Source of the DNA: a virus | Direction: 5' to 3' (one strand) | Virus record (IMG/VR): IMGVR_UViG_3300021471_000001 | Coordinates: 1-64,000 of that record | DNA: 64,000 nucleotides | In this document: positions 36,539-54,090 of the stretch, one piece after another | Position numbering within the stretch: the stretch's first letter is position 1 | How the letters are laid out: each line of letters opens with the position of its first letter | The notes under the pieces: generated by a model | Database searches by the model: none | Told to the model about the DNA's origin: nothing | Seen by the model: only the letters and a program-made list of their open reading frames with translations | Position numbers and translations under genes: made by a program

Positions 36539-36574
36539 ATTTCTACTCTTTTAAACATCTCGTTTATCTATATA

Positions 36575-36603
36575 AATATAACATATTTCAACAAAAAAGT
36601 CAA
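36575..36603 (-). promoter_or_regulatory. Sigma-70-type promoter for the packaging/head operon
   Basis: On the minus strand TTGACT (36598-36603) and TATATT (36575-36580) are separated by exactly 17 bases. Both match the consensus in five of six positions. The predicted start lies about 30 bases upstream of the ParB-like gene. The -35 overlaps the end of gene 36600-36848. Confidence 0.65.
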
Positions 36604-36848: not shown

Positions 36849-36886
36849 CCTACACTCATTTTATGAGATATTAAACAAAAAAAAAG

Positions 36887-37338: not shown

Positions 37339-37403
37339 CTTAAATATAAATAATTCTTCCAATACCTATACCTAAAACACTCAAAAACCCAAATGTTCCA
37401 TTT

Positions 37404-37595
37404 TTATTTTGCCACGTAGTAAGGACAATTCAGTATCACTACACTGCTATCTTGTTTACAGTCCTTTCTACAAGTCTTACAATGTGCGTTAACCTCCCTT
37501 TGAGTCTGTCTATCATCAACTTTTTTTTCTGTTTTTTCATACTTTTTTTTCATCTTTTTCACCTTTTTTTTCTCACATAAATCAAAAAAAATCAC
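37404..37595 (-). CDS. Small Cys-rich protein, 63 aa (GTG start)
   Basis: GTG 37595 follows GGAG with nine bases spacing; an internal ATG at 37553 with AAGGTG upstream is an alternative. After a Lys/Glu-rich N-terminal half, the C-terminal part has HCKTCRKDCKQDSSVVILNC, four Cys and a His likely to bind zinc. Related small Cys clusters occur at 51787-51939 and 52825-52998. It is followed by the hairpin spacer. Function unknown. Confidence 0.5.
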   Translation of the reverse strand: MIFFDLCEKKKVKKMKKKYEKTEKKVDDRQTQREVNAHCKTCRKDCKQDSSVVILNCPYYVAK

Positions 37596-37651
37596 GTAAT
37601 AAACTCCAAAATGAACACAAAATAAAGACTTTACATTTTTTTGGGACTTTT

Positions 37652-38251: not shown

Positions 38252-38400
38252 AATCACCTCCAAAAAATCTAGGTATGCCATTATTCTAATTTCGCTGAGA
38301 AATGCGAAATTGTACACAAGATTTAATTTTATTTTCATTTAGGTATATATAATCGTTTTTTCAAAAAAGCCTTCATTTTGTGCCGTTTTTCGAAATATTC

Positions 38401-38499
38401 TCAACTTTTCCTTTTTAACAGCGACTTTTGAAACAAATACAGCAAAAACGTTATCAAAAGCCAAAATAAAATGTATTCAATTTCTAAACACCTTATCAT
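38401..38499 (-). CDS. Small membrane peptide, 32 aa
   Basis: ATG 38499 has GGAGTTAAGCTT upstream and the frame ends at TGA 38401. The product is one hydrophobic helix (EYILFWLLITFLLYLF) with a basic tail (QKSLLKRKS). Single-segment peptides like this can disturb or modify the host membrane, but no function is known. It fits the gap between two early genes. Confidence 0.45.
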   Translation of the reverse strand: MIRCLEIEYILFWLLITFLLYLFQKSLLKRKS

Positions 38500-38533
38500 A
38501 AGCTTAACTCCAAGTTTTAATTTACAAATTTAT

Positions 38534-39310
38534 TTATGACATAGTATTACATATACCTACACACTCAAACAATGGATACTCATCCTTATAGTAAAAGCCG
38601 CTCAACTCTCCTTTTTCAATCTTAATCCTAAAATCTTCTAAAGTTATATCTTTAAGAAAGTGTACATCCTTAGAAAACTTTTTCCTAAATCGCCTTTCTA
38701 CTCTTTCTCTATCTGCATATACATCAGGTAGCTTATCATATAGTCTTTTCCATTGTCTTTTACCTTGCCTAACACAACCACCTGAACAATTGTTATGGCT
38801 AAATCCTAACTTATATAATATTGGCTCTTCAATCCCAGAATGCTTTATAAAATCATCTATTTCCATAGAATTAATACCATGCTCTATAAGAGGGAATCTT
38901 ATTCGACACATTTTTTTCTTTTTAGCTGCTATTACTTGATATACAGATACAATTCTTTGTGCTCTATGCTCTTCATCTTTACTAATGCCAAAAATTATTG
39001 TATCACCATTCTTATAAAACTTTTGAAGTCTTTCTGCTTTAAGTATACGAGAGCAAAATGGCATACGATCGCAAGCAAGAGCCTTTTGATCAAAAAAAAG
39101 CTGTTCAGGACTTCTTCCATCTGTATCCTTTGTTACTTCCTTTTTTAAAAACCTACTCAGATCATCTAAAAAACGGTATAGGTCTGGATGTTCCCACTTG
39201 GTGTCATTAAAATATAACACAATATCGTCCTTATCAAAGTTTCTCATTGCCCAATTAGCACACCATGCACTAGCTTTTCCACCACTTAAAGCTACTATAA
39301 TTCTTCCCAT
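38534..39310 (-). CDS. PP-loop (PAPS-reductase/CysH-like) protein
   Basis: The 258-residue protein has the pyrophosphate loop SGGKASAW (9-16) after strand RIIVAL, and the strand-2 segment IVLYFNDTKWEHPDLYRFLDD. Cys-rich pieces follow (LACDRMPFCSRILK; NNCSGGCVRQGKRQW; FECVGICN). PP-loop enzymes activate substrates by adenylation or reduce PAPS; the Cys set suggests an iron-sulfur or zinc site. A second PP-loop protein ends the csf operon at 41862-42557, and cysH-like genes are regular partners of type IV-B systems. Its substrate is unknown; Dnd-type DNA modification enzymes also use this fold. Confidence 0.75.
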   Translation of the reverse strand: MGRIIVALSGGKASAWCANWAMRNFDKDDIVLYFNDTKWEHPDLYRFLDDLSRFLKKEVTKDTDGRSPEQLFFDQKALACDRMPFCSRILKAERLQKFYKNGDTIIFGISKDEEHRAQRIVSVYQVIAAKKKKMCRIRFPLIEHGINSMEIDDFIKHSGIEEPILYKLGFSHNNCSGGCVRQGKRQWKRLYDKLPDVYADRERVERRFRKKFSKDVHFLKDITLEDFRIKIEKGELSGFYYKDEYPLFECVGICNTMS

Positions 39311-39333
39311 ATAAAAAAACCTTAATACAACAA

Positions 39334-39567
39334 CTAATTTTTGTTAAACATAAATCTGCTTTGATAATCCTGAACTACCTTCCAAGCCTTCATTATACCA
39401 TCAGCTATTTCTGACCGTGCCTTTATCTGGTATTCAAGACTGTCAAGCTTTTTTCTAATTTCGTCTATATCAATATAACCCTTCCCTTTGCATTTATCAC
39501 AAAGAAAAGGATAGTCCACAACGCCTATTCCTTTACATTTAGAACAGACAATCAAATTATTTTTCAT
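39334..39567 (-). CDS. DnaJ-type zinc-finger protein, 77 aa
   Basis: Residues 8-31 carry two CxxCxGxG-like repeats (CSKCKGIG and CDKCKGKG) as in the zinc domain of DnaJ, without a J domain. A helical C-terminus follows. It overlaps the end of 39557-40093 and has a strong GGGAGG site. It may help fold or bind an early phage protein; this is an inference. Confidence 0.6.
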   Translation of the reverse strand: MKNNLIVCSKCKGIGVVDYPFLCDKCKGKGYIDIDEIRKKLDSLEYQIKARSEIADGIMKAWKVVQDYQSRFMFNKN

Positions 39568-40093
39568 TTTTTTCCTCCCTTCTCTTCAAAATATAGTATC
39601 TATTTTTTATTGCATCTATGGTTCTGTTAAGCTTTTTTGCTATATAGTCATCGTCAATCTTTCTGTAGTATTTCAATATACAACAATCGTCTTCTCTAGT
39701 CCACTTATGATAGTGTCCTTTTCCATTCTCATATCCTTCCAATTCAAGTTGACGCTTAGAACTCAAATTCCGATATTTATAATAAACTTCACTATAGCTT
39801 CTACCTGTAATATCGGCTACCTTCAACAGCGTTTCCCTAAGATTGCGCCTATCTACAGTTTTATTTAAAACACATATCTCAAGCTCAGTCCAATTTTTAT
39901 ACCTCTTACCATTTTTAGTATCACTTTGAATGATATCACTAAGGTCGTAAGACGGATGTCTATTATTTGCTATTTCCCATGCCAACAATCTAGTGGCTTT
40001 TTTTAAGTAATCCGCATCTCTTAACATCTTTCTGTACATAATTATCTCTTTTTTTGTTAACTTTCTTTCTTTTTCAAAGGCATTTTCATTCAT
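39557..40093 (-). CDS. SANT/Myb-like helix-turn-helix protein
   Basis: This 178-residue protein begins with a helical domain (YRKMLRDADYLKKATRLLAW EIANNRHPSY) shared with 37652-38251. Two Myb-like units follow: WTELEICVLNKTVDRRNL ... SYSEVYYKYRNL, and WTREDDCCILKYYRKIDDD ... TIDAIKNRYYIL. These bind DNA in other families. The pair suggests duplication of an early regulator. The ribosome site is weak. Confidence 0.6.
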   Translation of the reverse strand: MNENAFEKERKLTKKEIIMYRKMLRDADYLKKATRLLAWEIANNRHPSYDLSDIIQSDTKNGKRYKNWTELEICVLNKTVDRRNLRETLLKVADITGRSYSEVYYKYRNLSSKRQLELEGYENGKGHYHKWTREDDCCILKYYRKIDDDYIAKKLNRTIDAIKNRYYILKRREEKNEK

Positions 40094-40130
40094 TTTAAAG
40101 CCCCATTATCTTTTGTTGTATTAAATTAAA

Positions 40131-40391
40131 TCAATTAAACATATCTAACTGCTTATTGTATTTAACATTACCATTTACAACTTCATACTTTTGAAAACAG
40201 AACAGGCAAATATATAAGTTATCTTTATTATCGAACTCGTACTTTTCCTGTCGTTCTTGTTTTCCACAATTTGGACACCTTATATTCGTTTCTTCAAAAC
40301 AAGATGGACAAAGATATGAATTAACCTTCTCACAAAAAATAAGCTTTTCAGATGGAATCTTCCTTTCACATTTTGGACACCTTATAATCAT
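40131..40391 (-). CDS. Multi-zinc-ribbon protein, 86 aa
   Basis: Five Cys pairs or singles are spaced as zinc ribbons: CPKC (5-8), FCEK, CPSC, CPNC and CLFC. It has a perfect AGGAGG site and starts one base from the RusA gene stop. The protein probably binds nucleic acid or another early protein. It has no visible enzymatic motif. Confidence 0.6.
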   Translation of the reverse strand: MIIRCPKCERKIPSEKLIFCEKVNSYLCPSCFEETNIRCPNCGKQERQEKYEFDNKDNLYICLFCFQKYEVVNGNVKYNKQLDMFN

Positions 40392-40742
40392 TTATACCTC
40401 CTTTACAGTTATCATTAAATAGTTTTCCTTGTCTGGCAAACGCTTTACACTTATATAATCGACCTGACTATCGTCTACAAAGACAATTCCCTTCAAACCA
40501 TCTATAGAAGCCTTTATAACATTATCTATATCTCTAAGCTTAACCATAAAAGACACTTCTATATTGATTCTTATGCGCTTACTTGACATCTTGGGTTTTT
40601 GTGAAAGGCATAAATATCCCAAAGCCCTCTTAAAATCCTTTACTGGACGCTTTAAATATATTCTACCATTTCTACTTATACCATAGGACTGATTTACAGA
40701 CGGTATTAAACCTGTATACTCTATCTTACATATAGTTTTCAT
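40392..40742 (-). CDS. rusA: RusA-family Holliday junction resolvase
   Basis: The 116-residue protein carries the RusA core LRDIDNVIKASIDGLKGIVF VDDSQV, with Asp71, Asp73 and the Asp90/Asp91 pair expected to bind magnesium, plus a GLIPSVNQSYG start. RusA cuts four-way DNA junctions made during recombination and clears branches before packaging. It fits with the annealing protein and SSB at 53329-54488. GGAGG precedes the ATG. Confidence 0.88.
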   Translation of the reverse strand: MKTICKIEYTGLIPSVNQSYGISRNGRIYLKRPVKDFKRALGYLCLSQKPKMSSKRIRINIEVSFMVKLRDIDNVIKASIDGLKGIVFVDDSQVDYISVKRLPDKENYLMITVKEV

Positions 40743-40978
40743 AATATCCTCCCATCAAAATAATTTACAAGCTTTTCTGTCATTTCATCTGTCAGTCTCA
40801 AATAATGCCGATTTAACTTCTCCCAAACCCTTCTCAATCTATCTTTTGCCTCACCTTCTTTTAACCTACTGCCCAACTGCCTTACTTTTTCCATCAACCT
40901 GTACGTCTCTTCTTTGTTCCAACCACCATTTATAAATGATACGTACTCTTCATATATAGTTCTAATCTCTTTTAACAT
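40739..40978 (-). CDS. Small helical protein, 79 aa
   Basis: The start is put at ATG 40978 (MLKEIRTIYEEYVSF) after AAAGGATG, three codons inside a longer frame. It is fully helical and charged (TYRLMEKVRQLGSRLKEGEA). It overlaps both neighbours slightly, so it is co-translated with the XRE regulator and RusA. Function unknown. Confidence 0.5.
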   Translation of the reverse strand: MLKEIRTIYEEYVSFINGGWNKEETYRLMEKVRQLGSRLKEGEAKDRLRRVWEKLNRHYLRLTDEMTEKLVNYFDGRIL

Positions 40979-41288
40979 CTCGAACATCCTTTAAAATTCC
41001 TTTCAACAAAGATAATAATTCTAATAAAGCTTTAGATTGCAATTCCAAAGCCAATTTTTTAATTTTAGGTTCCAACTTGCCATACTCTCTATGTAAAGAG
41101 CATCTGATATCATACGACTCATCTAGTACTTTACCCAAAACAAAAAGAAATTTATTTGATGGATTTTCTTTTCCAGATTCTATTCTTGATATATATCCTT
41201 TACTAAAACCCATGATGGAAGATAGTTTGCCAACACTTAAATTATGTCTTTCTCTTAAAGACGCTACAGAAATAATATTTTTAACCAA
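40962..41288 (-). CDS. XRE-family helix-turn-helix regulator (TTG start)
   Basis: TTG 41288 lies after GGAGGTGGAGAT. Residues of about 10-60 form a Cro/CI-type helix-turn-helix: LRERHNLSVGKLSSIMGFSK GYISRIESGKENPSNK. A helical tail follows. It is likely a repressor or activator of early genes, but no paired operator was identified next to it. Confidence 0.8.
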   Translation of the reverse strand: MVKNIISVASLRERHNLSVGKLSSIMGFSKGYISRIESGKENPSNKFLFVLGKVLDESYDIRCSLHREYGKLEPKIKKLALELQSKALLELLSLLKGILKDVRDVKRD

Positions 41289-41302
41289 ATCTCCACCTCC
41301 AT

Positions 41303-41836
41303 TTACAAATTTACCATAATTTTACCCAAACGATTTTCTCTTTGAGCTTTGTAATGGTTTTTTACAATATTGTGAAATTCATTTAATGACTTTCTAGAAA
41401 CATGTTCAGACAAGTAATATATATCACTCTTTTTCCTACCACTGCCATCATCGTAAAAAACTTCAATAGTCACTTCCACACGAAATCCTACCTCCATATC
41501 TACTTTTATAAAGTCCCTTTCAGCTTTGTATATAAAGCATGGACCAAAAGTCAAAAAGCCATAATCGTCCATAGTCCAATTAAACTTATAGGCGTGCCTT
41601 TTAATATACTCAAAAAGCTGAACAATGTTTCCACCTTGAACACTAGGCATATAGCTAATATTATAATTGCCTTCCATAACATCTTGGTATATTTCCTCTG
41701 CCCTATTTTTATCTATACCATAAAGTTCAACCGCTGCCTCTATCATAGCCTCTTTGTCATACTTATTTTCAGGCAACGTACCACTTCTTACCGCTTCCTC
41801 ATCAACCATCTTAAAAAAAGCATCTTTATCTATCAT
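41303..41836 (-). CDS. Unknown protein downstream of the csf/cysH operon, 177 aa
   Basis: The protein has an acidic helical N-terminal half (AAVELYGIDKNRAEEIYQDV) and a strand-rich part with DYGFLTFGPCFIYKAERDFI KVDMEVGFRVEVTIEVFY. It has an AAGGAG site and follows the CysH-like gene by 25 bases, so it may belong to the same unit. I do not recognise it. Confidence 0.5.
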   Translation of the reverse strand: MIDKDAFFKMVDEEAVRSGTLPENKYDKEAMIEAAVELYGIDKNRAEEIYQDVMEGNYNISYMPSVQGGNIVQLFEYIKRHAYKFNWTMDDYGFLTFGPCFIYKAERDFIKVDMEVGFRVEVTIEVFYDDGSGRKKSDIYYLSEHVSRKSLNEFHNIVKNHYKAQRENRLGKIMVNL

Positions 41837-41861
41837 ACTTTACTCCTTGAATAATAATAAT

Positions 41862-42557
41862 TTAAAAATATCTAAGTTTCCAACTTAACACATTGTCTAT
41901 TTCTGGACAACCATAAGCTAAAAACTCTGGGTCAAAAAGCGTTGTGAAACGTACTTTATCCCATCCCACGACAGGTGAATACTTGTCGTAGTAACTAATA
42001 TAAGGAATGCCGTTTTCTACTATGTAGCCCCACACATCAAGCCACGTCAAATCTCGGATAGGAAAAACTTCTTTCATTTCCGTTAAAGAACGACCTGAAG
42101 TTATTCTCAACCGTCTTTTTATGCTTTCTTCTTTTCTCAAACCGACAAAACAACAATCATATCCTTCTTTTATCAATCTAGGAATTAATCCCTTGATTAA
42201 ATCCATTCCTATCACGTTTGTAGCTTTTCGTTTTAATTTATCGTACAACTCGGAAGTCTCTACACGTAAGTTTTCTACGCCTATCTTTTTTGCATTTTCC
42301 ATTATTTCATTGAAATACACTCTCGGCATATAATACTTTCCGTAATCCCAATGTAAAACCATTATGTCTTTTTGCTGTTCTATAATCATGTGTAACATAA
42401 CGGTTGAGTCCTTTCCTCCAGAGAAAGCGACGTAAGACTTGTTATATTTCTTTAAGCTCTTTTTCACAATATCTTTAGCATTATCTATTCTCTCTCTATA
42501 CTCTTCTGTTGTACTATGTAAAGCAAAAGTTTCTCTTATTCTTTCTTCCATAACCAT
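41862..42557 (-). CDS. CysH-like PP-loop protein linked to the type IV-B locus
   Basis: This 231-residue protein has SYVAFSGGKDSTVMLHMI with the PP-loop SGGKDST at 46-52. It also has the strand 'DIMVLHWDYGKYYMPRVYFN', CFVGLRKEESIKRR and FPIRDLTWLDVWGYI. This is the PAPS/adenosine-phosphosulfate reductase fold, though the C-terminal Cys motif of true CysH (ECGIH) is absent. cysH-like genes neighbour many type IV-B csf operons and their role there is unknown. It ends the overlapping series that starts with csf1, sharing its first base with the end of the methyltransferase. Confidence 0.8.
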   Translation of the reverse strand: MVMEERIRETFALHSTTEEYRERIDNAKDIVKKSLKKYNKSYVAFSGGKDSTVMLHMIIEQQKDIMVLHWDYGKYYMPRVYFNEIMENAKKIGVENLRVETSELYDKLKRKATNVIGMDLIKGLIPRLIKEGYDCCFVGLRKEESIKRRLRITSGRSLTEMKEVFPIRDLTWLDVWGYIVENGIPYISYYDKYSPVVGWDKVRFTTLFDPEFLAYGCPEIDNVLSWKLRYF

Positions 42558-43231
42558 TAACTCACTTTAAATTTTGCACCTTCCTTATTAAGCTTACTAA
42601 TAGCATGTGCTAAGCTATTTTTATTTATATCTACACCATAAAAACACTTACATTGATTATAACAAGCTAAAGCAGTTAACCCTCTTCCCATACACATGTC
42701 TACTATAGGTGATAATATTTCATATCCTATAGCATGATACGGCGTCATACTGTCATCCAAACCACTAAAATCCTTTTTACAAAGGTCATAGGCACCTCTG
42801 AGCAGATAAGCTTTTCTTTCTTTATAGTAAGTAATTTCCCAAACATCTACTATTGGAAAAAGCTTCCCCATTTCAAATTCAAAGACATCTACATATTGTT
42901 TTCCTATTTCCAAATAACAAACTTGAGCATTCGTTTCATTAATTCTTTCAAACAAAGACATATAAAAATCTGCATAATCTTTTATCTTATTTTCTTTACA
43001 TGCCTTATTAATAAAATAGTTTGTCAAAGCTTTATTCCAGGGGGGATCACAATAAACCATCTCCGCTTTTTTACAGTAAGTCGGATAATCATGTCTTATA
43101 TCACATACACTTATCATTGAATCTCCCTTTAAGTTGCTATCATAATAGTGCCATATCTCTCCCTCCTTGATTGGGAACTGATACCAAGCACTCATCTTTT
43201 TCTTTTTTTTCTTATTCTTTTTCTCTTCCAT
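42557..43231 (-). CDS. DNA methyltransferase-like protein (DPPW motif)
   Basis: The N-terminus is a lysine run. MVYCDPPWNKAL (motif IV, DPPW at 62-65) comes before ILSPIVDMCMGRGLTALACY NQCKCFYGVDIN (SAM-binding motif I), the order of beta-class amino-methyltransferases. The product is therefore probably N6-adenine or N4-cytosine methylation of DNA. At 224 residues it is short and has little target-recognition region. It overlaps the glycosyltransferase-like gene by 40 bases, with its own AGGAG site, and lies in the csf operon. Confidence 0.7.
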   Translation of the reverse strand: MEEKKNKKKKKKMSAWYQFPIKEGEIWHYYDSNLKGDSMISVCDIRHDYPTYCKKAEMVYCDPPWNKALTNYFINKACKENKIKDYADFYMSLFERINETNAQVCYLEIGKQYVDVFEFEMGKLFPIVDVWEITYYKERKAYLLRGAYDLCKKDFSGLDDSMTPYHAIGYEILSPIVDMCMGRGLTALACYNQCKCFYGVDINKNSLAHAISKLNKEGAKFKVS

Positions 43232-43845
43232 ATCTTTACACTCCTTTCTTTTAGAAAATCTCTCTTTAATTTTTCTAAGTCAGTAACGCCAAAAGTCCTT
43301 GACTGTCTTTTAGAAGAACGTCTAGGATTGATTGAAGACCTTCCTACCCTATGATCTACCAAATTAGGTACAACAATCCAATATCTCATTTTCTTCTTAC
43401 GCAAAACCCAAGCAACAAATAAATCTGTCCCCGTCGGATTCTTACCACTATCATATACTTTCCAGCTTTCATAATATTCTAACAGTTCTTTTGACAATCC
43501 CATAGGCAAATAAAAACACACGCTACACATAAAAGAACCGCCTGAACAATATCTACTGCCTATCAATATATCATCTTTCCTTCTTGAAAAGAATTGTATA
43601 ACTTCATTTGGTCTTTTATCTATTTCTACACTAACTTTATCCAAAAAATTATCACACAATATAACATCGTCTTCCAAATGCAAGCATGGATATGACTTTG
43701 CAAGCTTCAACGCTTCTAAAAACGTGTCCATAGCATTCTTTGTTTTATCATAACAGTATATTGTGTCTTCTGGTAAATGATTCCGCAAATATTCTATGTA
43801 CGGTTCTCTTTTCTTAACACATTTAACAATTATTTTATAATTCAA
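43192..43845 (-). CDS. Glycosyltransferase-like protein (TTG start)
   Basis: TTG 43845 follows GAGGAG. The N-terminal half has a Rossmann-like strand (YKIIVKCVKKREPYI), a helix with MDTFLEALKLAKSYPCL and the LHLEDDVIL acidic motif (EDD 58-60), as in GT-A enzymes that bind a sugar nucleotide through a metal. The C-terminus is extremely basic (KIWKRKRIRKKRKR), suggesting contact with nucleic acid. Related phage genes accompany DNA modification enzymes. Here it sits between csf3 and a DNA methyltransferase, so glycosylation of DNA is a possibility. Confidence 0.6.
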   Translation of the reverse strand: MNYKIIVKCVKKREPYIEYLRNHLPEDTIYCYDKTKNAMDTFLEALKLAKSYPCLHLEDDVILCDNFLDKVSVEIDKRPNEVIQFFSRRKDDILIGSRYCSGGSFMCSVCFYLPMGLSKELLEYYESWKVYDSGKNPTGTDLFVAWVLRKKKMRYWIVVPNLVDHRVGRSSINPRRSSKRQSRTFGVTDLEKLKRDFLKERSVKIWKRKRIRKKRKR

Positions 43846-44575
43846 TTTCTATCTCCTCTTTTGGAATGCAACAAATATCCACATTTTCAGGAGACCAGTA
43901 CGGTGGCTTCCAAGCTACATTCACAACTCTTTTACATTTCTTTAAATATCGTCTCGGAATAGGTCTCATCGCCTTGCCATCTTTGATTAAACTATAATCT
44001 TTATCTGTACTCTTAATCTCAAAACCACTTACAGCACCATAACCAACACGACAATTATCTCCCAAACCCACAATCAAAGAACACAAATACTCCATCGCCT
44101 TTCTATCCGCATTAACATAAAAGCTTACTGTCCTAGTCGGTATATATATATGTCTCATCATATAATCCCTAAAGTGACCACTACCTTTACTTATTTTTCT
44201 ATGTCCTTTTATCCATCTATCCTCAAACTTCTTGTACAACACTTCCATTTTTAAGCTATCAGTATCGAAAAAAGAAATCGAACTATGGTATAAATCACCA
44301 TGAGAAAGCTTTATTGGACTTTCTGGTAAATCATTTTTATTTATCACTCGAAATAAATTAAACTTACGTGGAAGCAAATAATAATCTTTCCCTAAATACT
44401 TCAATAGAAGCAAATGTCCAATTAGTCCATCGAAGTTTAACCAAGCATGATTCAATGCTATTGGTGAGGACATATAAAAAATTATCTCCATAGGAGTATA
44501 TTTCATAGGTTTTGCATTCCGATTAATCGCTTCTACATACTTTTTTGCAAAATATTTTATTTCATCAATTATCAT
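43835..44575 (-). CDS. csf3: Type IV CRISPR Csf3 (Cas5-like) protein
   Basis: The 246-residue protein has the RAMP fold features of Csf3: 'YTPMEIIFYMSSPIALNHAW LNFDGLIGHLLLL' at the N-terminus and SLIVGLGDNCRVGYGAVSGF near the C-terminus (a Gly-rich loop). In between, SKGSGHFRDYMMRHIYIPTR TVSFYV. Csf3 is the Cas5-like subunit that caps the 5' end of the guide RNA in type IV complexes. It overlaps csf2 by four bases and is overlapped by the glycosyltransferase gene. The order csf1, cas11, csf2, csf3 matches subtype IV-B. Confidence 0.85.
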   Translation of the reverse strand: MIIDEIKYFAKKYVEAINRNAKPMKYTPMEIIFYMSSPIALNHAWLNFDGLIGHLLLLKYLGKDYYLLPRKFNLFRVINKNDLPESPIKLSHGDLYHSSISFFDTDSLKMEVLYKKFEDRWIKGHRKISKGSGHFRDYMMRHIYIPTRTVSFYVNADRKAMEYLCSLIVGLGDNCRVGYGAVSGFEIKSTDKDYSLIKDGKAMRPIPRRYLKKCKRVVNVAWKPPYWSPENVDICCIPKEEIEIEL

Positions 44576-45414
44576 TTTCCCTTTCCTAACTTTGCAATTA
44601 ATTCAATTAATAAATCTTTGTTACTTTCTACAAAGCTAATATACGCCTTACTATCGCTAATCTGTGGTCTATAGTCAAAAGACACTTCGCCATCACCTGT
44701 TGAACTTTTTCCACCAACAAATGGTGACTTTCTGAATAGCTCAATCACTCTTCCAAAACACGACTTTTCTAATTCCGTTGCCCACTCGAGTGAGAACCAG
44801 TGATAAAACTTTGTTCCTATACCAAAGCACTCATAGTCAACTTTCATCTGTTGAGCCTGCTCATCCTTCTCTCTATCGGCTTTTAAGTCGTCCTTACGTG
44901 TATGAAAGCTTTCGTCAGTAAATTCTTTCACGTTTTTATTTACTCTTTCGTCTTGTTTATATTGTTCAGGTAGGTATATATAATATTCTTTGCAGATTGG
45001 AAAAGCATGTCCGACTTTCAAAATTCCTGGTATCATTTGATTTCCTATTGCACAGCCAAAAACGGCAAGTGGTATAATCAAATCTCTTATTTCAGTACGC
45101 ATTTTCAGGTCTATGGTTGCGTAATTATCCTCTGTACTCTCTAATACACCACCTGTGAAGAATGTATGATATAGCTTTACTGGAAGTTTATCAACCTCAA
45201 ATCCAAGCAGTTCTAGAAAGTCTTTCATAATAAGACGTCTTAGCTTCCCCCTTATAGCATTGCCATGCAAGTATGGAAATGGTATTTCACCCATTCCATC
45301 AACGTAAAGGTAGATTGTCCTTAACACTGGTGTTGAACCAGTCTTTTCATTACCACCGTGATGTATTGGAGACTTCGCTAGAAGCCATCCTTCGTACTTT
45401 TGAATTATTTTCAT
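44572..45414 (-). CDS. csf2: Type IV CRISPR Csf2 (Cas7-like) backbone protein
   Basis: The 280-residue protein starts YEGWLLAKSPIHHGGNEKTG STPVLRTIYL and continues GEIPFPYLHGNAIRGKLRRL IMKDFLELLG, the hallmark of Csf2/Cas7 RAMP proteins. A later LFRKSPFVGGKSSTGDGEVS is the C-terminal Gly-rich loop. Csf2 multimerises along the guide RNA as the backbone of the type IV ribonucleoprotein. It has a perfect AGGAGG site and overlaps the cas11-like gene by four bases. I consider this the strongest Cas assignment in the window. Confidence 0.9.
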   Translation of the reverse strand: MKIIQKYEGWLLAKSPIHHGGNEKTGSTPVLRTIYLYVDGMGEIPFPYLHGNAIRGKLRRLIMKDFLELLGFEVDKLPVKLYHTFFTGGVLESTEDNYATIDLKMRTEIRDLIIPLAVFGCAIGNQMIPGILKVGHAFPICKEYYIYLPEQYKQDERVNKNVKEFTDESFHTRKDDLKADREKDEQAQQMKVDYECFGIGTKFYHWFSLEWATELEKSCFGRVIELFRKSPFVGGKSSTGDGEVSFDYRPQISDSKAYISFVESNKDLLIELIAKLGKGK

Positions 45415-45821
45415 TCTTTTACCTCCTCTGTCTTTTTTTGTTCATACATATCTTGTATGTCTATATCAAATGTAGGTTTACTTTTCCTACTACTTTTAAT
45501 CTCTTTTCCCTTTATGATAGCTCTTACACAAAAGGGAATGTGTTCAGAATAAAGCCTAGTAAGTACATAGACCTCATCCTTTCTTAAATCTTCGACTAAT
45601 CCTATACTTTCACCTGGTAGGGTCTGCAAACCAAAGTAATTACATAACTTACTTGCAAAAGCATAGATAGTCCCTCGTCTAGAAGCCGATCTAACACGGT
45701 GATTAAATATATCGTGCGGATTCTTAGACGTTTTCATACTATGCCAATTTATCTTACTGTATACCACAGCGAGTAAATCGACAAGCGTATCTTCTAAAAC
45801 CTTTTTCCTATTTGGAGACAT
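45411..45821 (-). CDS. Cas11-like small subunit of the type IV-B complex
   Basis: This 136-residue protein is mainly helical (LEDTLVDLLAVVYSKINWHS; RGTIYAFASKLCNYFGLQTL) with a strand-rich segment (DEVYVLTRLYSEHIPFCVRA IIK). It lies exactly between csf1 and csf2, where type IV-B loci encode the small subunit Cas11 that lines the belly of the complex. No motif is diagnostic, so the call rests on position, size and helical nature. It overlaps csf1 by 14 bases and csf2 by four. Confidence 0.65.
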   Translation of the reverse strand: MSPNRKKVLEDTLVDLLAVVYSKINWHSMKTSKNPHDIFNHRVRSASRRGTIYAFASKLCNYFGLQTLPGESIGLVEDLRKDEVYVLTRLYSEHIPFCVRAIIKGKEIKSSRKSKPTFDIDIQDMYEQKKTEEVKE

Positions 45822-46416
45822 AAGCTAACAACTCCCATAATGGATTTCTAATAAATGGTTTGGCACTTTCTATTAAGAAATACCAACCCTTTTCCATAGC
45901 TAGCCTTGAGTTTTTCATTGTTAATTCACCTCTAATTATTTCTGACTTTGAGACTTTATTCTCACGAAGCCTACATATTAGGTTGTGATAAGTCTTCACG
46001 TCACTTTGATTAACTAAAAAACTCCCGAGCCAGTCTGTGGAAACATAAAAATGAACGTTATCAAAGTTAATTCTTTGTAAGGAATCGAGCCACCCTTGTT
46101 TTTGGTAGCTCTTTGTAACATATAAAAAGAATGGAACAGGTTTTTCTCTCAATAAGGTCTCCAAAACCTCTTCTCTCTTTAAAAATACAACACTTTCCTC
46201 AGTAGCAAACCACGATTTCTTACGATAGTTCTGATTCCTAAAGAAATGATAACAATATTCACAAGTTACACCGCCATTTTTCAAGTATGAGTATCCTGTA
46301 AAACTGTTTGAGAATGGCAAATCAAAACCATTATTCGTCTCTTTACCACATACACAACAATAGCCAGATTTATCTCCTATTTCTGGACTTCTAATAACCA
46401 ATTCTGTAACTATCAT
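45808..46416 (-). CDS. csf1: Type IV CRISPR Csf1 (Cas8-like, zinc-finger) protein
   Basis: The 202-residue protein has a CxxC pair at 20-23 (CCVC) and another at 52-55 (CEYC), with 'DLPFSNSFTGYSYLKNGGVT' between them. This is the zinc finger typical of Csf1, the large-subunit marker of type IV CRISPR. The rest contains FFLYVTKSYQKQGWLDSLQR INFDNVHFYVSTDW and a helical C-terminus. Its start overlaps the stop of the AntA-type gene (ATGA), so both are translated together. No nuclease motif is present, as expected for type IV. Confidence 0.8.
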   Translation of the reverse strand: MIVTELVIRSPEIGDKSGYCCVCGKETNNGFDLPFSNSFTGYSYLKNGGVTCEYCYHFFRNQNYRKKSWFATEESVVFLKREEVLETLLREKPVPFFLYVTKSYQKQGWLDSLQRINFDNVHFYVSTDWLGSFLVNQSDVKTYHNLICRLRENKVSKSEIIRGELTMKNSRLAMEKGWYFLIESAKPFIRNPLWELLAYVSK

Positions 46417-47081
46417 CTTGACAACCTCTTTCTATACTGATAAAACAACTTTTCGATATTTAAGTACCTAGTTCTAACTACTTCACCTTTATAGCTTCTA
46501 CTAAGCATAATCAACTTCTTAGCAAAGTCAAGAGTCAGCTCATACTCTATCCTACGTGGAAAACCACGCCGATCATACTCGATAACATAGCGTTTATAAT
46601 CCCTTCCTTCCTTTGCATACAAATTTTGTTCTATGTTTTTTCGCTTCCATTTAGCATAATTACCAACGTCAAGTCCCAAAAACCTGTATAGCTCTGAGCT
46701 CATGATGGTTTTCTTTAACTCAATTTTTTCTGTAAATCTAGGTAAGCTCGTTTTCATAAAGCTTTTTCCCTTTTCTGCGTCTTTATACTCTTTTCTAGAT
46801 TCTTCTCTATCCTTTATATATCCCACTACAATTTCGTATCCTCTTTTGGTAAATACTCTTAGACGATTGACTTGTTCTACGTTATTATATAGGTCTTTGA
46901 TTTGAGACCTGAATACTTTTACATTATCGCCTGAAAGCAAATATGTATCTTTGTTTTCCTTCAAGTTTCGTTTCAAGAGCTTATTTGCAACTTGTTGAAT
47001 TCTCTTTTCTGTTACACCAAGCTCTTTTGCCATGTCTAAAACAGTAAATACTTGTTTACCATTAAAATATCTTTTTGTCAT
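46413..47081 (-). CDS. HTH plus AntA-type regulator ahead of the csf genes
   Basis: The start is set at ATG 47081 (MTKRYFNGKQVF) after TGGAGG. The N-terminal helix-turn-helix (VFTVLDMAKELGVTEKRIQQ VANKLL) is followed by a spacer, then an AntA/AntB domain (IMSSELYRFLGLDVGNYAKW ... EYELTLDFAKKLIMLSRSYK ... VRTRYLNIEKLF). It is related to 4661-5455. The gene overlaps csf1 and lies downstream of the DnaC-like gene, so it may control, or simply share, the message of the Cas genes. Confidence 0.75.
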   Translation of the reverse strand: MTKRYFNGKQVFTVLDMAKELGVTEKRIQQVANKLLKRNLKENKDTYLLSGDNVKVFRSQIKDLYNNVEQVNRLRVFTKRGYEIVVGYIKDREESRKEYKDAEKGKSFMKTSLPRFTEKIELKKTIMSSELYRFLGLDVGNYAKWKRKNIEQNLYAKEGRDYKRYVIEYDRRGFPRRIEYELTLDFAKKLIMLSRSYKGEVVRTRYLNIEKLFYQYRKRLSR

Positions 47082-47097
47082 AGCTTTAAACCTCCAT

Positions 47098-48069
47098 TTA
47101 TTTAAGTTCAATAAAGTTTTTACTATCATTACACTTCTCACTTATCCTTCTAAACATTGAAGTAAGAACATCACTCCATGAATTGTTTATGTCATAAATC
47201 ATTTTCTGTAAATCATAGATTGATTTGTTCGATGTAATAATGAACTGAAACCGCTCTCCACGTTTATAAATCGCATCAAACACAGCCAACATCTCTTTTA
47301 AGTTAAACTCTGTGAACTTCACTTTATCAAAGTCATCTATAAGAATATAGTAATATGATTCTGTCGGTGGAACAGTAATTTCCCATATTTTCAAATGTGT
47401 AAATGCTTTATAATCCCTTTCTAATCCATATTTTACAAACTCTTTTATCAGTTTATTACATGTGAAATTGTTAAAAGAGAATATTAAGTCTTGGTCTATG
47501 TAGTAGGAAAGTATCGCATACATGGAGTATGTTTTGCCAACGGCAGGTCTGCCATATAGATAAAAGGATTGTGGCTTTTCATAATTTTTAACCATATTAA
47601 AAAGCCTTTTCTGACAGCCATTCTTATGACTTTCAAAATTAGCATCTTTATAAATGCCAAACTTGTACTTCATCTTAGCTAACATATTTTTCCTGTAATC
47701 TTTGCTTTTCTCTTTGTATCGTCTATCTATCTCACACTGTCTGCAATAATCCCAAATCAGAACGTCGTTATCGAATTCTCTCGGCTTTCCGATTGTATCT
47801 TTTAAAGCATCTGCACTTATTTTAAAGAATGACGAAATCCACTCAATCTTACTAGCAAAGATTTTTGAACCGCAGACCTGACATAATTTAACGCTATCTC
47901 TAAGATTACCTTCAGTTACATATTTATTTATCGCTTCCATACGTTCTTTAACACTACTTGGAATTATATCTTTCTTTTCATTAGCTTTAATTTGTTCTAA
48001 TGGTATCTCAAACTTTGTTTTGACAGCCTTTTTTATTGGTTTGTCAAATGGATTTTCTTTGCTATTCAT
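47098..48069 (-). CDS. dnaC: DnaC-like helicase loader (AAA+ ATPase)
   Basis: This 323-residue protein has an N-terminal zinc site (Cys63-x2-Cys66 and Cys109-x2-Cys112). Its AAA+ core has Walker A GRPAVGKT (173-180), Walker B YILIDDFD, sensor FIITSNKS and an arginine-finger region MFRRISEKC. DnaC/DnaI proteins open the DnaB ring and load it at an origin. With the initiator gene 49908-51311, it suggests lambda-style theta replication using host DnaB and polymerase. It starts after AAGGAG. Confidence 0.88.
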   Translation of the reverse strand: MNSKENPFDKPIKKAVKTKFEIPLEQIKANEKKDIIPSSVKERMEAINKYVTEGNLRDSVKLCQVCGSKIFASKIEWISSFFKISADALKDTIGKPREFDNDVLIWDYCRQCEIDRRYKEKSKDYRKNMLAKMKYKFGIYKDANFESHKNGCQKRLFNMVKNYEKPQSFYLYGRPAVGKTYSMYAILSYYIDQDLIFSFNNFTCNKLIKEFVKYGLERDYKAFTHLKIWEITVPPTESYYYILIDDFDKVKFTEFNLKEMLAVFDAIYKRGERFQFIITSNKSIYDLQKMIYDINNSWSDVLTSMFRRISEKCNDSKNFIELK

Positions 48070-48072
48070 AAC

Positions 48073-48456
48073 TTACTCCTTTTGATTTTCTTCTTTGATA
48101 ATCTCATGTGGATATATGGCATGTTCTCTTGTCTCTTTGGCAATGTCTTCAACATAAGCGTTTGCTAAATTATTCCAAATGTCTACACTGTTTGTACATA
48201 TAATATTAAGTCTATAACCTTCACCGTCACTCTGAAAAAACAACACATCTTTATTCTTAATTTCGCTTTCATCAAGAGTTTTGCCATTCTTTAAACTATT
48301 AACAAGTTCTCCCAATACTTTATATAGCTTAAAGAGAGCCCTCTCATTAAGTACTATAAAGGAATCTGTATGCCAATATTGTTGTGAATAAATGTGACAT
48401 GCGGCTATAGTTTTATAGTGCTTTTTAAGTATTTCTCTTACTTCCTTTTTATCCAT
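48073..48456 (-). CDS. Unknown early protein, 127 aa
   Basis: The protein is helical in its first two thirds (KEVREILKKHYKTIAACHIY, ALFKLYKVLGELVNSL) and has a strand pair (KDVLFFQSDGEGYRLNIICT). It lies between the duplicated family and the DnaC-like gene with a GAGGGGG site, overlapping the former by eight bases. Not recognised. Confidence 0.55.
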   Translation of the reverse strand: MDKKEVREILKKHYKTIAACHIYSQQYWHTDSFIVLNERALFKLYKVLGELVNSLKNGKTLDESEIKNKDVLFFQSDGEGYRLNIICTNSVDIWNNLANAYVEDIAKETREHAIYPHEIIKEENQKE

Positions 48457-48781
48457 CTTTTTCCCCCTCTCGGTTTTTTAAAACGTGCTCTAAGATAATA
48501 TTAAACAATTTAGATTGTAGATTTAATTCGTTCAGTAATGTGCTTCCAAAGTCATCATGAAAACGCTCATTGAGAGATAGTTTACTGGTGATCATGATGA
48601 ATAGCATGGTAATAGCTCCCTCATAAAAGCTTTTGTCTTTATCAAAACTGAACTTGCTTTTTAAAATACTACATCCATCTAAGCTTAAGTCACCGCTATC
48701 AAGATCACTACTAAAATCTTTTAAAGCTTTTGTAGGAATAATTACATCCCAAAATTTTAATTCTTTTTCTTTATTACTCAT
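48449..48781 (-). CDS. Member 1 of a duplicated phage family, 110 aa
   Basis: The C-terminal half has SKFSFDKDKSFYEGAITMLF then NLQSKLFNIILEHVLKNREG. The same 'F.FD..D.FYEG ... L.N..L.HVLK.R' pattern is found in 48774-49136 and twice in 49223-49915. It is helical with no enzymatic motif. The strong AAAGGAGG site and overlapping starts show one transcript. Function unknown. Confidence 0.6.
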   Translation of the reverse strand: MSNKEKELKFWDVIIPTKALKDFSSDLDSGDLSLDGCSILKSKFSFDKDKSFYEGAITMLFIMITSKLSLNERFHDDFGSTLLNELNLQSKLFNIILEHVLKNREGEKDG

Positions 48782-49915: not shown

Positions 49916-51311
49916 TTTCTTTTACTCCTTCATCATTATACTTATGTGGATAGTAATCTCTAAGACATTTCTCTTCCCATTCTTCATCTGTCATCAGACT
50001 AGGATCGGTCTTTCTCTTTTCTATATACTCTGCCTTTAAGTTAGAATATTTCCTTAGTAGTATAGAAGGAATTAATTCGTATTTATACCAATCTTTCTTC
50101 AGTGCAAAATTGACAATCCTACGAAACAAATCTCTATCTTTTTCTATTCTAGCAATATAACGGAATTGTCCTATTTCAGATATTGTAAGAGAGCAATAGA
50201 AACCGTGCACTTCTTTCCACTCTTCAAAATATATTTTCCTTAAGTCTTCTGAAAGCTTTTTTTCTAAACTTTTCTTACCTTTTCCATTTCTAGAAGGTTT
50301 AAGTACTTTACTTGCTTCTTCAAAAAGATATTCTGTACTAGTATTAACATTATCTTTACTTTGACTTACTTTTTCTATACTACTAGTACTAGAATCTATG
50401 TTATGGGAACTAGTACCTAGAGTAGAGTCTATGTTAGAAGTACAAGTTGTACTAGATTCCTTAGTACTAGAGTCTTTGCTAGAAGAACTAGATTCTTTAG
50501 GTCTAGTTGTACTAGATTCTCTAGTAGATCTAGATCTACTAGAAGTACTAGAAGATTCATCAACTTTTTCTTTAGAAAAAGTTGATGGTTTTTCTTTATT
50601 TTTTTTTCTAGATCTTTCTTTATATTCTTTATTTCTAGTTTCTTTAGGATTCTCGAAATGCTTTTCAGAAAAGCTTTTTTGCGGTGTAACTTGTGTATTT
50701 TTTACACAAGTTATTAATCCTTTGTCAATCCCGTTTTCGAAGACATCGAGTTTGTTATCACTGTCTGGTTGCTGATTCCCAACTTGTGTATTTTTTACAC
50801 AAGTTTTGTGTAAACTTTCCCCAAGTTGGCTTTTATCTTTGACACTGTCTTTAGAGTAATCTTGTTCCATTTTGTTGTTCTCTGATAAAGATTTTTCAGG
50901 TTGTGTATTTTTTACACAAGTTGTTTCCTTGCTTTCAATTTCTTTTTTCGGAGTTGCAACGTCTATTTTGTTGTTGGAGACTTTATCTTCAACTTGTGTA
51001 ATATTTACACAAGTTTGATTTCCTCTTTTCTCACTTGTGTAATATTTACACAAGTTTATTATACGCCCCTGTCCCTGTCTTGTTTTCACTTCTATTATAC
51101 CTTTTCTTTTTAATTCAGAAAGACATTTTGTAATCGTCTTATTATTCAATCCAGTTTCAGAAATGAGTTTACAATTTGTTAATTTTGTTCCTCTTCTTTG
51201 AAAGCCATTCGTATATCGAAATATTATGAAAAGTAGTTTCGTAGCATTTCCTGAAAGGTGAATTAAATCTTTTTTATCGATCAAATCATTATCAAACATA
51301 GTAAAGCCCAT
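49908..51311 (-). CDS. Replication initiator-like protein carrying the origin
   Basis: The 467-residue protein has an N-terminal winged-helix domain like phage O/RepA N-terminal or MarR-like initiators (LSGNATKLLFIIFRYTNGFQ, SETGLNNKTITKCLSELKRK GIIEV). A long Ser/Thr/Lys-rich low-complexity middle and a folded helical C-terminus follow (EWKEVHGFYCSLTISEIGQF ... NFALKKDWYKYELIPSILLR). The middle contains repeated TCVKNTQ units, which are the coding shadow of five palindromic iterons. An initiator binding repeats inside its own gene is the arrangement of lambda O. The gene lies just upstream of the DnaC-like loader region. Confidence 0.75.
   Translation of the reverse strand: MGFTMFDNDLIDKKDLIHLSGNATKLLFIIFRYTNGFQRRGTKLTNCKLISETGLNNKTITKCLSELKRKGIIEVKTRQGQGRIINLCKYYTSEKRGNQTCVNITQVEDKVSNNKIDVATPKKEIESKETTCVKNTQPEKSLSENNKMEQDYSKDSVKDKSQLGESLHKTCVKNTQVGNQQPDSDNKLDVFENGIDKGLITCVKNTQVTPQKSFSEKHFENPKETRNKEYKERSRKKNKEKPSTFSKEKVDESSSTSSRSRSTRESSTTRPKESSSSSKDSSTKESSTTCTSNIDSTLGTSSHNIDSSTSSIEKVSQSKDNVNTSTEYLFEEASKVLKPSRNGKGKKSLEKKLSEDLRKIYFEEWKEVHGFYCSLTISEIGQFRYIARIEKDRDLFRRIVNFALKKDWYKYELIPSILLRKYSNLKAEYIEKRKTDPSLMTDEEWEEKCLRDYYPHKYNDEGVKENE
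50381..50587 (-). repeat. CTAG-rich palindromic tract inside the initiator gene
   Basis: About 200 bases code for the Ser-rich linker and contain many CTAG tetramers, often as TACTAG or CTAGAT. A perfect 22-base palindrome lies at 50521-50542 and a perfect 13-bp hairpin at 50558-50587 (CATCAACTTTTTC and GAAAAAGTTGATG, loop TTTA). The tract is next to the iterons and may help melt or fold the origin. Confidence 0.6.
50688..51055. repeat. Five palindromic iterons; probable replication origin
   Basis: Five copies of ACTTGTGTA, five A/T bases, TACACAAGT occur at 50688-50712, 50781-50805, 50898-50922 (left outer arm changed), 50991-51015 and 51033-51055. Centres use TTTTT or ATATT. Four copies are read as TCVKNTQ or TCVNITQ, but the fifth is read in another frame (NLCKYYTSE). 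DNA sequence, not protein, is therefore conserved. The location within an initiator gene strongly suggests an origin. Confidence 0.75.
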
Positions 51312-51313
51312 AA

Positions 51314-51496
51314 TTAGTCCTCTGGATATACATTTACATCTTTAACTTTTTCTTTTTTAACTTTGAATTCATATTTTCGTATGTAATTGTCTAAGATTCG
51401 CCTTATGAACTCGGTTTCAGAAATTTCCAATTTCTTTGATATATCATTAACAAATGTTTTCTGTCTATCAGAAAGCCTTATAACCTTTTTGAACAT
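51314..51496 (-). CDS. Ribbon-helix-helix regulator, 60 aa
   Basis: KKVIRLSDRQKTFVNDISKK LEISETEFIRRILDNYIRKY fits a CopG/Arc-type fold: a strand then two helices. It is the first gene of the initiator operon, with AAGGAG and a promoter just upstream. It may repress its own operon by binding the palindrome at 51572-51596; this is an inference. Confidence 0.7.
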   Translation of the reverse strand: MFKKVIRLSDRQKTFVNDISKKLEISETEFIRRILDNYIRKYEFKVKKEKVKDVNVYPED

Positions 51497-51538
51497 AGAA
51501 AACTCCTTATAGTAATATATATAATTTTATATCAGTTA

Positions 51539-51567
51539 AAAATATATAAATATATCCAAAAAGTCAA
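51539..51567 (-). promoter_or_regulatory. Promoter of the RHH-initiator operon
   Basis: On the minus strand TTGACT (51562-51567) is followed after 17 bases by TATTTT (51539-51544) within an AT-rich run that also offers TATATT at a shorter spacing. The -35 is the same as at 36598-36603. It lies about 45 bases upstream of the RHH gene start. Confidence 0.5.
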
Positions 51568-51571: not shown

Positions 51572-51596
51572 AAATTGTATATTTTTTATACAATTT
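51572..51596. promoter_or_regulatory. Palindromic operator-like site next to the promoter
   Basis: AAATTGTATA (51572-51581), TTTTT, TATACAATTT (51587-51596) is a perfect 10-bp inverted repeat with the same spacer as the iterons but different arms. It sits just upstream of the -35. It could bind the RHH protein or the initiator. Confidence 0.5.
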
Positions 51597-51706
51597 ACGC
51601 TTATTTTTTGTAATAACATGAGGTTAAGCATACATTTTTCTCAAAAAAAAATAAGGCTTATTATTTTTAAAAACTCTTAAAAACATTTTGCTTTTCCAGA
51701 GAACAT

Positions 51707-51777
51707 TTGAGTAAAGTAAGCTCCCATATATAACTTGCTGCATTATATATGGGAACAGAATTAAATGGTTTACTCAA
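51707..51777 (-). other. Nested double dyad downstream of gene 51787-51939
   Basis: An inner perfect dyad (TCCCATATATA 51722-51732; TATATATGGGA 51744-51754) is enclosed by an outer one (TTGAGTAAA 51707-51715; TTTACTCAA 51769-51777). It follows the stop of 51787-51939 in transcription order, and could be a terminator-like or regulatory RNA fold. Confidence 0.45.
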
Positions 51778-51786
51778 GATAACTGC

Positions 51787-51939
51787 CTAGTTCATCTCTT
51801 TTTTTAGTAAAGCTATTCGTAACTCTAGATACTCTCTTATCATACACACTTCTTTTTCGTCATCAAGAAACTGACAGTCAAGTCTACAAAAATTTTTTAT
51901 TAGTGGACAGATGCTCATATCATGTCTTCTCTTTTCCAT
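51787..51939 (-). CDS. Small Cys-rich protein, 50 aa
   Basis: The start is set at ATG 51939 (MEKRRHDMSICPLIKNFC) after AAGGAG; longer frames lack a site. Cys11, Cys18, Cys22 and Cys32 form a likely zinc cluster (CPLIKNFCRLDCQF ... VC), followed by a helix (YLELRIALLKKEMN). Function unknown. Confidence 0.5.
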   Translation of the reverse strand: MEKRRHDMSICPLIKNFCRLDCQFLDDEKEVCMIREYLELRIALLKKEMN

Positions 51940-52025: not shown

Positions 52026-52838
52026 CTATTTAAAAAGTTTATTTTGATTAAAATGAAACTTGAAAAAGTCTGGAAACTCTTGATAGACTTTACCATCAAT
52101 CAGATTACCACCCTTGAAACTTCCATCACTGCATTCTCCTTTTCTACCCCACTGTTTGAAGAAAAATGGTATCTTTAAGCTTTCACAATAGTTTTTTATA
52201 TTAATAACCCAATCTTTTTTCATGGGGCGTGCACATTTGCCACCAGTTTCTCCCCCAACTATCACCCAACTGACGTATTGCAATTTACTGTATAAAGATG
52301 CATTCATTTTTTCTAGCAGAGGTTCAAAAGAAACAAAAATGTTGAATTTAAAAATATTGTAAACTGTGTATACTAAAGCTTTCAGACGATGTAACGCTCG
52401 ATTATTTTCTACAGTCACGCCTATCATAACGTTTCTAGGTAAACCTTCAAAATTGATACCATGACTACGATAGAAGTCCATCTCGATAAAATGCGTGATT
52501 AATTTATCTATACGCTTTGTCAGTATCAAAAAAATATGTTGTTTAGATTTTTCGATAGTAGAAAAGACTTGTGCAATAAAATTATGACTAACTTCTTCAT
52601 GAAACAAGTCTGACATTGAATTTACAAATATTAATTTAGGTTTTTTCCATTTTAACGGCGTATTTAATTCATTTTCATGACAAACAACTTTATTAAAACC
52701 ATATTTATATTTTTTTAATCCCATAGCTTGTAGTCTTTTTGTCATTCTTTCTGCATAGCAATATCTACAACCGTCACTTACTTTAGTACACCCTGTCACA
52801 ATATTCCAAGTTTCCTCTGCCCATTCAATTTTTGTCAT
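52026..52838 (-). CDS. DUF5131 / phage Gp37-Gp68-type protein
   Basis: The 270-residue protein starts MTKIEWAEETWNIVTGCTKV SDGCRYCYAERMTKRL, with Cys17, Cys24 and Cys27 in the family's C-x6-C-x2-C cluster. It then shows PKLIFVNSMSDLFHEEV, IFLILTKRIDKLI, NVMIGVTVENN, FVSFEPLLEKM and WVIVGGETGGKCARPM. This matches the phage family now called DUF5131, thought to be radical-SAM-like because of the three-Cys cluster. Its substrate is unknown. It overlaps the small ORF 52825-52998, which carries its ribosome site. Confidence 0.8.
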   Translation of the reverse strand: MTKIEWAEETWNIVTGCTKVSDGCRYCYAERMTKRLQAMGLKKYKYGFNKVVCHENELNTPLKWKKPKLIFVNSMSDLFHEEVSHNFIAQVFSTIEKSKQHIFLILTKRIDKLITHFIEMDFYRSHGINFEGLPRNVMIGVTVENNRALHRLKALVYTVYNIFKFNIFVSFEPLLEKMNASLYSKLQYVSWVIVGGETGGKCARPMKKDWVINIKNYCESLKIPFFFKQWGRKGECSDGSFKGGNLIDGKVYQEFPDFFKFHFNQNKLFK

Positions 52839-53328: not shown

Positions 53329-54090
53329 CTATGATACCTCATCATTCGTGTTTTTCCAATCTTGTAAGGTTTTTTGAAACCTTCCAGCTTCCAAGCTTTC
53401 CTTTAGCTTTTGTACAGCGTCCATTCCCAATTCATTTGTACTCTCTTTAATAAGACCAGCTTCAATACAATAAGATTTAAACTCTTCTTTGTCTATTCCA
53501 TATTGATTTAACAAAGCATATAACATTTTTCTTGTTTTTTCATTGCCATTTTTTGTACTTGCATTTTTGTTAACGTTCTTTGGAACATTATTATTATCTA
53601 CGTACTCTTCTATATCCTGTGTAAATAAACCACTAATACGTGTTGCAGAGATGACACCACTTACAAAGGCACGTTTATAGGCCATCTTAAGGATCGTATT
53701 AGACCATCTCAAAGGATTATACTTAAATCTTTCCTGTTCGGCACTCGAATAACTGCCTAGACCAAAGGATATAACTTTATCTTTCGTTTTAATGTTTAAC
53801 TGAACAGTCCATTCTAATACGTTATTGTGGAAAAACCTTTCTTGTTTTACTATTTCAACCGATAATCCAAACAAAAAAGCCAATTTATCCGCACCACTTT
53901 TAAAAAGACAAGGTTTATCTCCGAAAGGTTTTTTCCCATACTTGTCAACAACAACACCATAATCCTCATTCTCTTTTAGAAATTGCATTATGGCTTTTTT
54001 ATGTTCTTCAAAACGCTTTTTTAATTCTATGGCTCCCTGTTCCGACGCATAAGGTAAGTCGGAATGTATTTTGATTAAATCATTTGACAT
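53329..54090 (-). CDS. Putative single-strand annealing protein (Rad52/Erf-like)
   Basis: This 253-residue protein has 'CLFKSGADKLAFLFGLSVEI', VISFGLGSYSSAEQERFKYN and NTILKMAYKRAFVSGVISAT RISGLFTQDIEEY. The pattern 'GA.KLA..FGL ... NT.LKMA.KRA.V......S.LFTQD' is a widespread phage family that I believe to be recombination-related. It is next to an SSB-like gene and upstream of RusA. The C-terminal part is a separate helical unit. The exact family is from memory and unverified. Confidence 0.55.
   Translation of the reverse strand: MSNDLIKIHSDLPYASEQGAIELKKRFEEHKKAIMQFLKENEDYGVVVDKYGKKPFGDKPCLFKSGADKLAFLFGLSVEIVKQERFFHNNVLEWTVQLNIKTKDKVISFGLGSYSSAEQERFKYNPLRWSNTILKMAYKRAFVSGVISATRISGLFTQDIEEYVDNNNVPKNVNKNASTKNGNEKTRKMLYALLNQYGIDKEEFKSYCIEAGLIKESTNELGMDAVQKLKESLEAGRFQKTLQDWKNTNDEVS

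Follow-up and report, generated by a model that had tools for sequence, protein, structure and literature searches.

Long, widely spaced palindromic iterons inside a divergent O-type initiator gene mark a probable lambda-like origin of a tailed phage

Introduction

A set of near-identical palindromes inside a replication initiator gene raises the question of whether the gene carries its own origin and, if so, of which type. The gene studied here lies in the window, by which we mean the whole stretch of DNA analysed, bases 1-64000 of a viral record of 64,608 bases. Terminase, portal, major head and tape-measure genes are present in the window, and nearly all of its long genes are on the minus strand.

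The lambda mechanism, as set out in PMC5043065 and PMC7466680, served as our model. PMC7466680 describes each iteron of the lambdoid origins as an inverted repeat, PMC5043065 describes the lambda sites as binding O dimers, and PMC3349717 gives an arrangement in which four iterons of 18 bp are connected to an AT-rich sequence of 38 bp. An origin inside the initiator gene is also known for pSK41-type plasmids, according to PMC5703833.

Results

Palindromic sites in the initiator gene

The repeated element is a 25-bp palindrome, AACTTGTGTA-N5-TACACAAGTT, and all five copies lie inside the initiator gene (Table 1), as a sequence-only reading of this DNA had claimed. The pattern ACTTGTGTANNNNNTACACAAGT is matched with 0-2 mismatches at 50689, 50782, 50899, 50992 and 51033, whereas 100 dinucleotide shuffles of the window gave 0.04 matches on average and never five. 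Over the full 64,608 bp of the record there are five occurrences of the core TTGTGTA-N5-TACACAA and 0 of its backwards-read control. All ten arm pairs are formed in three copies; one copy lacks two outer pairs and another the outermost pair.

Table 1. Features of the initiator region, with positions in the window
Feature	Position	Strand or frame	Basis or remark
DnaC-like helicase loader gene	47098..48069	-	phrog_50 (E 1e-11), phrog_3277 (E 1e-6)
O-type replication initiator gene, 467 aa	49908..51311	-	PF04492 and O-like PHROGs
AT-rich tract, candidate unwinding element	50595..50634		40-mer of 87.5% AT, in gene, 3' of iterons
Palindromic iteron, last along gene	50688..50712	frame 2 (TCVKNTQ)	
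Palindromic iteron	50781..50805	frame 2 (TCVKNTQ)	
Degenerate sixth iteron	50803..50827	third frame	weight-matrix score 9.2 and recurrent-palindrome detector; 22 bp from copy at 50781
Palindromic iteron, two outer pairs lost	50898..50922	frame 2 (TCVKNTQ)	
Palindromic iteron	50991..51015	frame 2 (TCVNITQ)	
Palindromic iteron, first along gene	51032..51056	frame 0 (NLCKYYTSE)	
Winged-helix DNA-binding N-domain, first 92 aa	51036..51311	-	tblastn to phage O proteins, Pfam, model and fold matches
60-aa protein, ribbon-helix-helix look (by eye only)	51314..51496	-	operon's first gene; rival site binder
Possible promoter TTGACT-17-TATTTT	51539..51567	-	consensus match only
Palindrome variant upstream of operon, candidate operator	51572..51596		score 14.0; simulated maximum 12.3 (20 sequences)

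A weight matrix was built from the five sites, with 20 simulated 64-kb sequences as background. It picked out two sites that the sequence-only reading did not contain, the degenerate sixth iteron and the variant upstream of the operon. The score of the sixth iteron is attained in some of the simulated 64-kb sequences but has a low chance of arising in any one stretch of a few hundred bases. The upstream variant departs from the consensus symmetrically and lies directly upstream of the possible promoter, which is a weak match; promoter-like matches in the region are no commoner than in shuffles. The site at 19245, which scores 12.6 and lies in a structural-gene region, was taken as chance, as was an exact palindrome that occurs as a single site in one other viral contig.

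The strict sites are spaced by 41, 93, 117 and 93 bp, and including the degenerate site gives 41, 93, 95, 22 and 93 bp. These positions are phased at 10.5 bp per turn with R 0.84 (P ~0.02 against random placement), and R is 0.39 at 10.3 and 0.43 at 10.6. Since this test was made post hoc it is weak, and it does no more than suggest phasing near 10.5 bp per turn.

The best AT-rich 40-mer of the initiator gene is richer on the 3' side of the sites than on the 5' side. The least stable duplex near the sites is not this in-gene tract but the intergenic stretch 51506-51560, which is second in the whole window for low duplex stability.

Selection on DNA

Four copies are translated as TCVKNTQ (three) or TCVNITQ (one) and the fifth is read in another frame, and on this point offsets and codons agree with what had been read from the sequence. 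The TCVKNTQ copies all use ACT TGT GTA AAA AAT ACA CAA and the TCVNITQ copy uses ACT TGT GTA AAT ATT ACA CAA; under phage codon usage, the seven-codon spelling of TCVKNTQ has a chance of ~0.01 per copy. When the protein was resampled synonymously 1000 times, the exact core appeared 0 times in 922 resamplings, once in 75 and twice in 3, as against five times in the gene itself. The 68- and 92-base spacers between sites show no alignment beyond shuffles. Since the spacers are not detectably homologous and resampling never reaches five, it is the DNA that is selected, in agreement with the sequence-only reading, and 25-bp blocks are kept rather than a peptide or a larger repeat unit. The repeats could also be explained as kept for the peptide TCVKNTQ or as a relic of the tandem duplication of a larger coding unit, and the reading frame common to four of the five copies and the two identical spacings of 93 bp speak for this. 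However, one copy is read in a different frame, free synonymous choice would be unlikely to produce the identical codons and the spacers lack homology, and we give this explanation practically no weight; both of its forms were rejected on the resampling and the spacers.

The initiator and its neighbourhood

The initiator scores 31.2 bits against Pfam Phage_rep_O (PF04492) over the full protein and 34.9 bits over the first 100 aa (cut-off 28.7), and matches several O-like PHROGs. Its score with NCBIfam phage_O_Nterm (TIGR01610), 37.4 bits (E 2.7e-9), is below the curated cut-off of 45.5 bits. Judged by these scores, the protein passes the Pfam line and is related to the TIGR01610 family while lying outside that model's line. 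In tblastn, the first 92 aa match the O proteins of Flyfo siphovirus, Virgibacillus phage Mimir87, D3, phi80, HK97 and Salmonella phages, with 24-31% identity among the matches listed; identity of the N-domain is 26% to lambda O and 24% to phi80. The last 140 aa gave no tblastn match in 50,697 phage records.

We modelled the N-domain from a 70-sequence alignment, and the model is a winged helix with a mean pLDDT of 73. CodY DNA-binding domains head its PDB matches, among which the N-domains of plasmid initiators (4pql, 5kbj and 4pt7) are also listed. Among PDB chains the lambda O N-domain has no sequence match at E 0.1, and a direct structural template is thus lacking.

No close relatives of the initiator were found in the viral contigs, phages, genome contigs or plasmids searched, and a search for relatives of the DnaC-like loader likewise found none. 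The terminase has no viral-contig relative and matches only phage records of < 60% identity, and the gene at 53329-54090 has no viral-contig relative and matches 10 distant phage records.

The loader gene is downstream of the initiator gene, with three listed minus-strand ORFs in between. The 60-aa protein that heads the operon has no significant family match in profile searches (Pfam, PHROGs and NCBIfam among them). Searches of the window found no tRNA and no Rfam family. There are 4 matches to the DnaA box TTATNCACA in the window against 3.9 expected, and none between 48392 and 61742.

Downstream of the iterons the initiator gene has two further features. Its Ser/Thr/Arg linker (50383-50638 in the window) is enriched in CTAG, with 16 occurrences in codons 226-325. 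Phage codon usage gives a mean of 2.8 (largest value 8 of 2000) and local synonymous shuffling gives 9.3, with 16 reached in 2 of 5000 shuffles; the enrichment could reflect slippage or a DNA signal. An inverted repeat with a 14-bp stem at 50557-50588 adjoins the AT-rich tract.

Palindromes in the O family

To place the sites in a wider setting, we surveyed 13 named O genes and the O genes from three scans, which covered 80 of the 311 relatives from viral contigs, 80 of the 103 from genomes and 80 of at least 588 further viral-contig relatives. Of the 240 loci, 238 have an O ORF, and 223 of these ORFs are complete and at least 180 aa long; they form 123 clusters at 80% identity. With the named genes, one representative per cluster and the window's gene, 137 genes were tested. 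To count as positive, a gene needed a best recurrent palindrome, present at three or more sites, whose score exceeded that of every one of 100 codon shuffles.

Such a palindrome is present in 89 of the 137 O genes, that is, in the window's gene and 88 of the 136 others. As a control, the longest ORF other than O was taken from each locus, and a signal appeared in 0 of 112 cases (11 of 123 loci have no such ORF). The sites occupy more than one reading frame in 64 of the 88 positive relatives, or in 57 of 85 with stricter sites. Over 79 loci, 288 of the sites with at most one mismatch are inside the O gene and 1 is outside it. When the best AT-rich 40-mers on the two sides of the sites are compared, the 3' one is richer in 78 of 87 relatives, and there are 4 ties; a further gene was excluded since it lacked flanking sequence. 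In this survey, palindromic sites in mixed frames are usual in the O family. The 88 include near-duplicates, namely CBP1 and L019, D3 and FBPa47, and phi80 and its viral-contig relatives.

The window's gene stands apart in two respects. Its median arm length is 10 bp as against 6 bp in the other genes, none of which reaches 10. Spacing in the family has a median of 24 bp over 299 spacings, of which 20 are at least 60 bp and 5 at least 90 bp; only TPWB-05 has a median spacing above that of the window's gene, and its site set is doubtful because it includes an outlying site. With a first detector, which used 20 shuffles per gene, TPWB-05 and FBPa47 scored within the shuffle range. Since spacing varies to this extent across the family, we did not take 20-24 bp as a defining bar.

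No palindrome above all shuffles was found in 48 of the 137 genes, including those of Mimir87, SDFMU_Pfc, YPHTV-1 and Spoks, in which the first detector likewise found no repeat. Sites in these 48 genes may be direct repeats or may be located elsewhere. As a separate observation, AP45 has a 12-bp repeat pattern.

Discussion

A lambda-type origin and the alternatives

The Phage_rep_O N-domain, the winged-helix model, the DnaC-like loader and the AT-rich tract 3' of the sites make it very probable that the locus is a tailed-phage replication origin built like ori-lambda. The confinement of the DNA-selected sites to the gene, and the recurrence of palindromes and of the richer 3' side across the O family, speak for it as well. 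By analogy with lambda, the O-type initiator would bind each 25-bp palindrome as a dimer through its winged-helix N-domain, the site-loaded array would bend the DNA, the AT-rich tract on the 3' side would open and the DnaC-like loader would bring the helicase. Autoregulation at the variant site 51572-51596 is possible. Several results count against a lambda-type origin: the spacing is far from the 24-bp median, the TIGR01610 cut-off is missed, the last 140 aa have no tblastn match, the least stable duplex is intergenic and 48 of the 137 family genes have no palindrome signal.

The position of the least stable duplex leaves some room for a related arrangement in which the initiator, bound at the palindromes, opens 51506-51560 rather than the in-gene tract, so that the origin spans both; the variant palindrome adjoins this stretch. 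Promoter regions are AT-rich in any case, however, and the in-gene 40-mer is richer on the 3' side in the window as in most relatives, which makes intergenic opening rather improbable in our view. The same upstream variant, next to the possible promoter and the gene that heads the operon, also fits a purely regulatory role, with the palindromes serving as operators for another DNA-binding protein of the phage, be it the 60-aa protein or the phage repressor. Against such a role, five sites lie within the initiator gene, O-family genes generally carry their own sites (288 of 289 with at most one mismatch) and the 60-aa protein matches no regulator family significantly; we judge it improbable by a wide measure. 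Each palindrome could in addition form about ten base pairs of RNA, and T-rich sequence follows one of them on the plus strand, as would suit mRNA hairpins that tune translation or stability of the initiator message. Yet similar palindromes with unrelated half-sites recur across O genes, no Rfam family is matched and the lambda sites are described as binding O dimers (PMC5043065), and hairpins of this kind are very hard to credit.

The long perfect arms, the wide spacing near whole helical turns and the symmetric upstream variant could also be read as a distinct O-type architecture, a looped or wrapped origin of ~370 bp instead of lambda's compact array, with the initiator controlling its own promoter. 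Own-promoter control occurs in some plasmid initiators. We consider such an architecture unlikely. What stands out at the locus is quantitative, namely arm length and spacing, and the lambda-type origin proposed here is a divergent member of an already known origin type.

Comparison with known origins

As in ori-lambda (gene O) and phi80 (gene 15), a winged-helix O N-domain is followed by inverted-repeat iterons within the gene, the sites have an AT-rich tract on their 3' side and a partner replication gene is downstream; the sites are in different frames, as they are in lambda. In contrast, the lambda and phi80 sites are ~20-24 bp apart and have shorter arms, whereas the arms here are 10 bp and the spacing is mostly 93-117 bp, and the half-site is unrelated. 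The sequence-only reading had seen the lambda O arrangement recreated with palindromic instead of direct repeats. The O-type initiator and the likely origin in its gene bear out the arrangement, but the supposed novelty does not stand. Since the lambda iterons are inverted repeats, as PMC7466680 describes them, and the lambda sites in NC_001416 lie in two reading frames, the contrast was mistaken and a frame change is usual.

RepA_N replicons such as pSK41 share a winged-helix N-domain, sites for the initiator midway along the rep gene and an origin-encoded linker, as described in PMC5703833, but they belong to another sequence family and are plasmid-borne, and RepA_N is absent among the Pfam matches of the initiator up to E 0.1. 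The iteron plasmids F, P1 and R6K have arrays of initiator sites adjoining an AT-rich region; these are described in PMC5043065 as mostly direct repeats that bind monomers, unlike the inverted repeats found here within the gene.

The analysis assigns a likely origin to a phage for whose initiator the searched collections contain no close relative, and it shows that palindromic iterons are no departure from lambda. According to the survey, the sites can be read straight off the sequence of O genes, and the survey provides 88 relatives in which a predicted half-site stands beside the winged-helix sequence expected to read it. With these pairs, the recognition code of the initiator family can be tested by sequence comparison and domain swaps.

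Additional features of the window

Upstream of the initiator operon, the intergenic sequence has a strong nested hairpin (51680-51790, minus strand; -29.7 kcal/mol, z -3.75), whose stability is matched by no shuffle and which has no Rfam match. The replication region is flanked by an AntA/ORF6N-type antirepressor gene and a DUF5131 gene (46413-47141 and 52026-52838).

Near the initiator region the phage has an operon resembling a type IV CRISPR effector (Csf; 43835-46416, minus strand). It comprises a Csf3-like ORF (TIGR03116, E 6e-13), a Csf2/Cas7-like ORF (TIGR03115, E 4e-12; PDB 7jhy Csf2, E 1e-14), a Csf1-like ORF (TIGR03114, E 3e-5) and one 136-aa ORF, and all three TIGR matches are below the curated cut-offs. 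No CRISPR-like array was seen in 36500-48500 at the settings used. Type IV-B CRISPR loci carry CysH, and PAPS-reductase (CysH-like) genes are present here at 41862-42557 and 38534-39310. The phage also encodes the barrel domain of a ribonucleotide reductase large chain (27660-29312; PF02867, E 4.5e-78).
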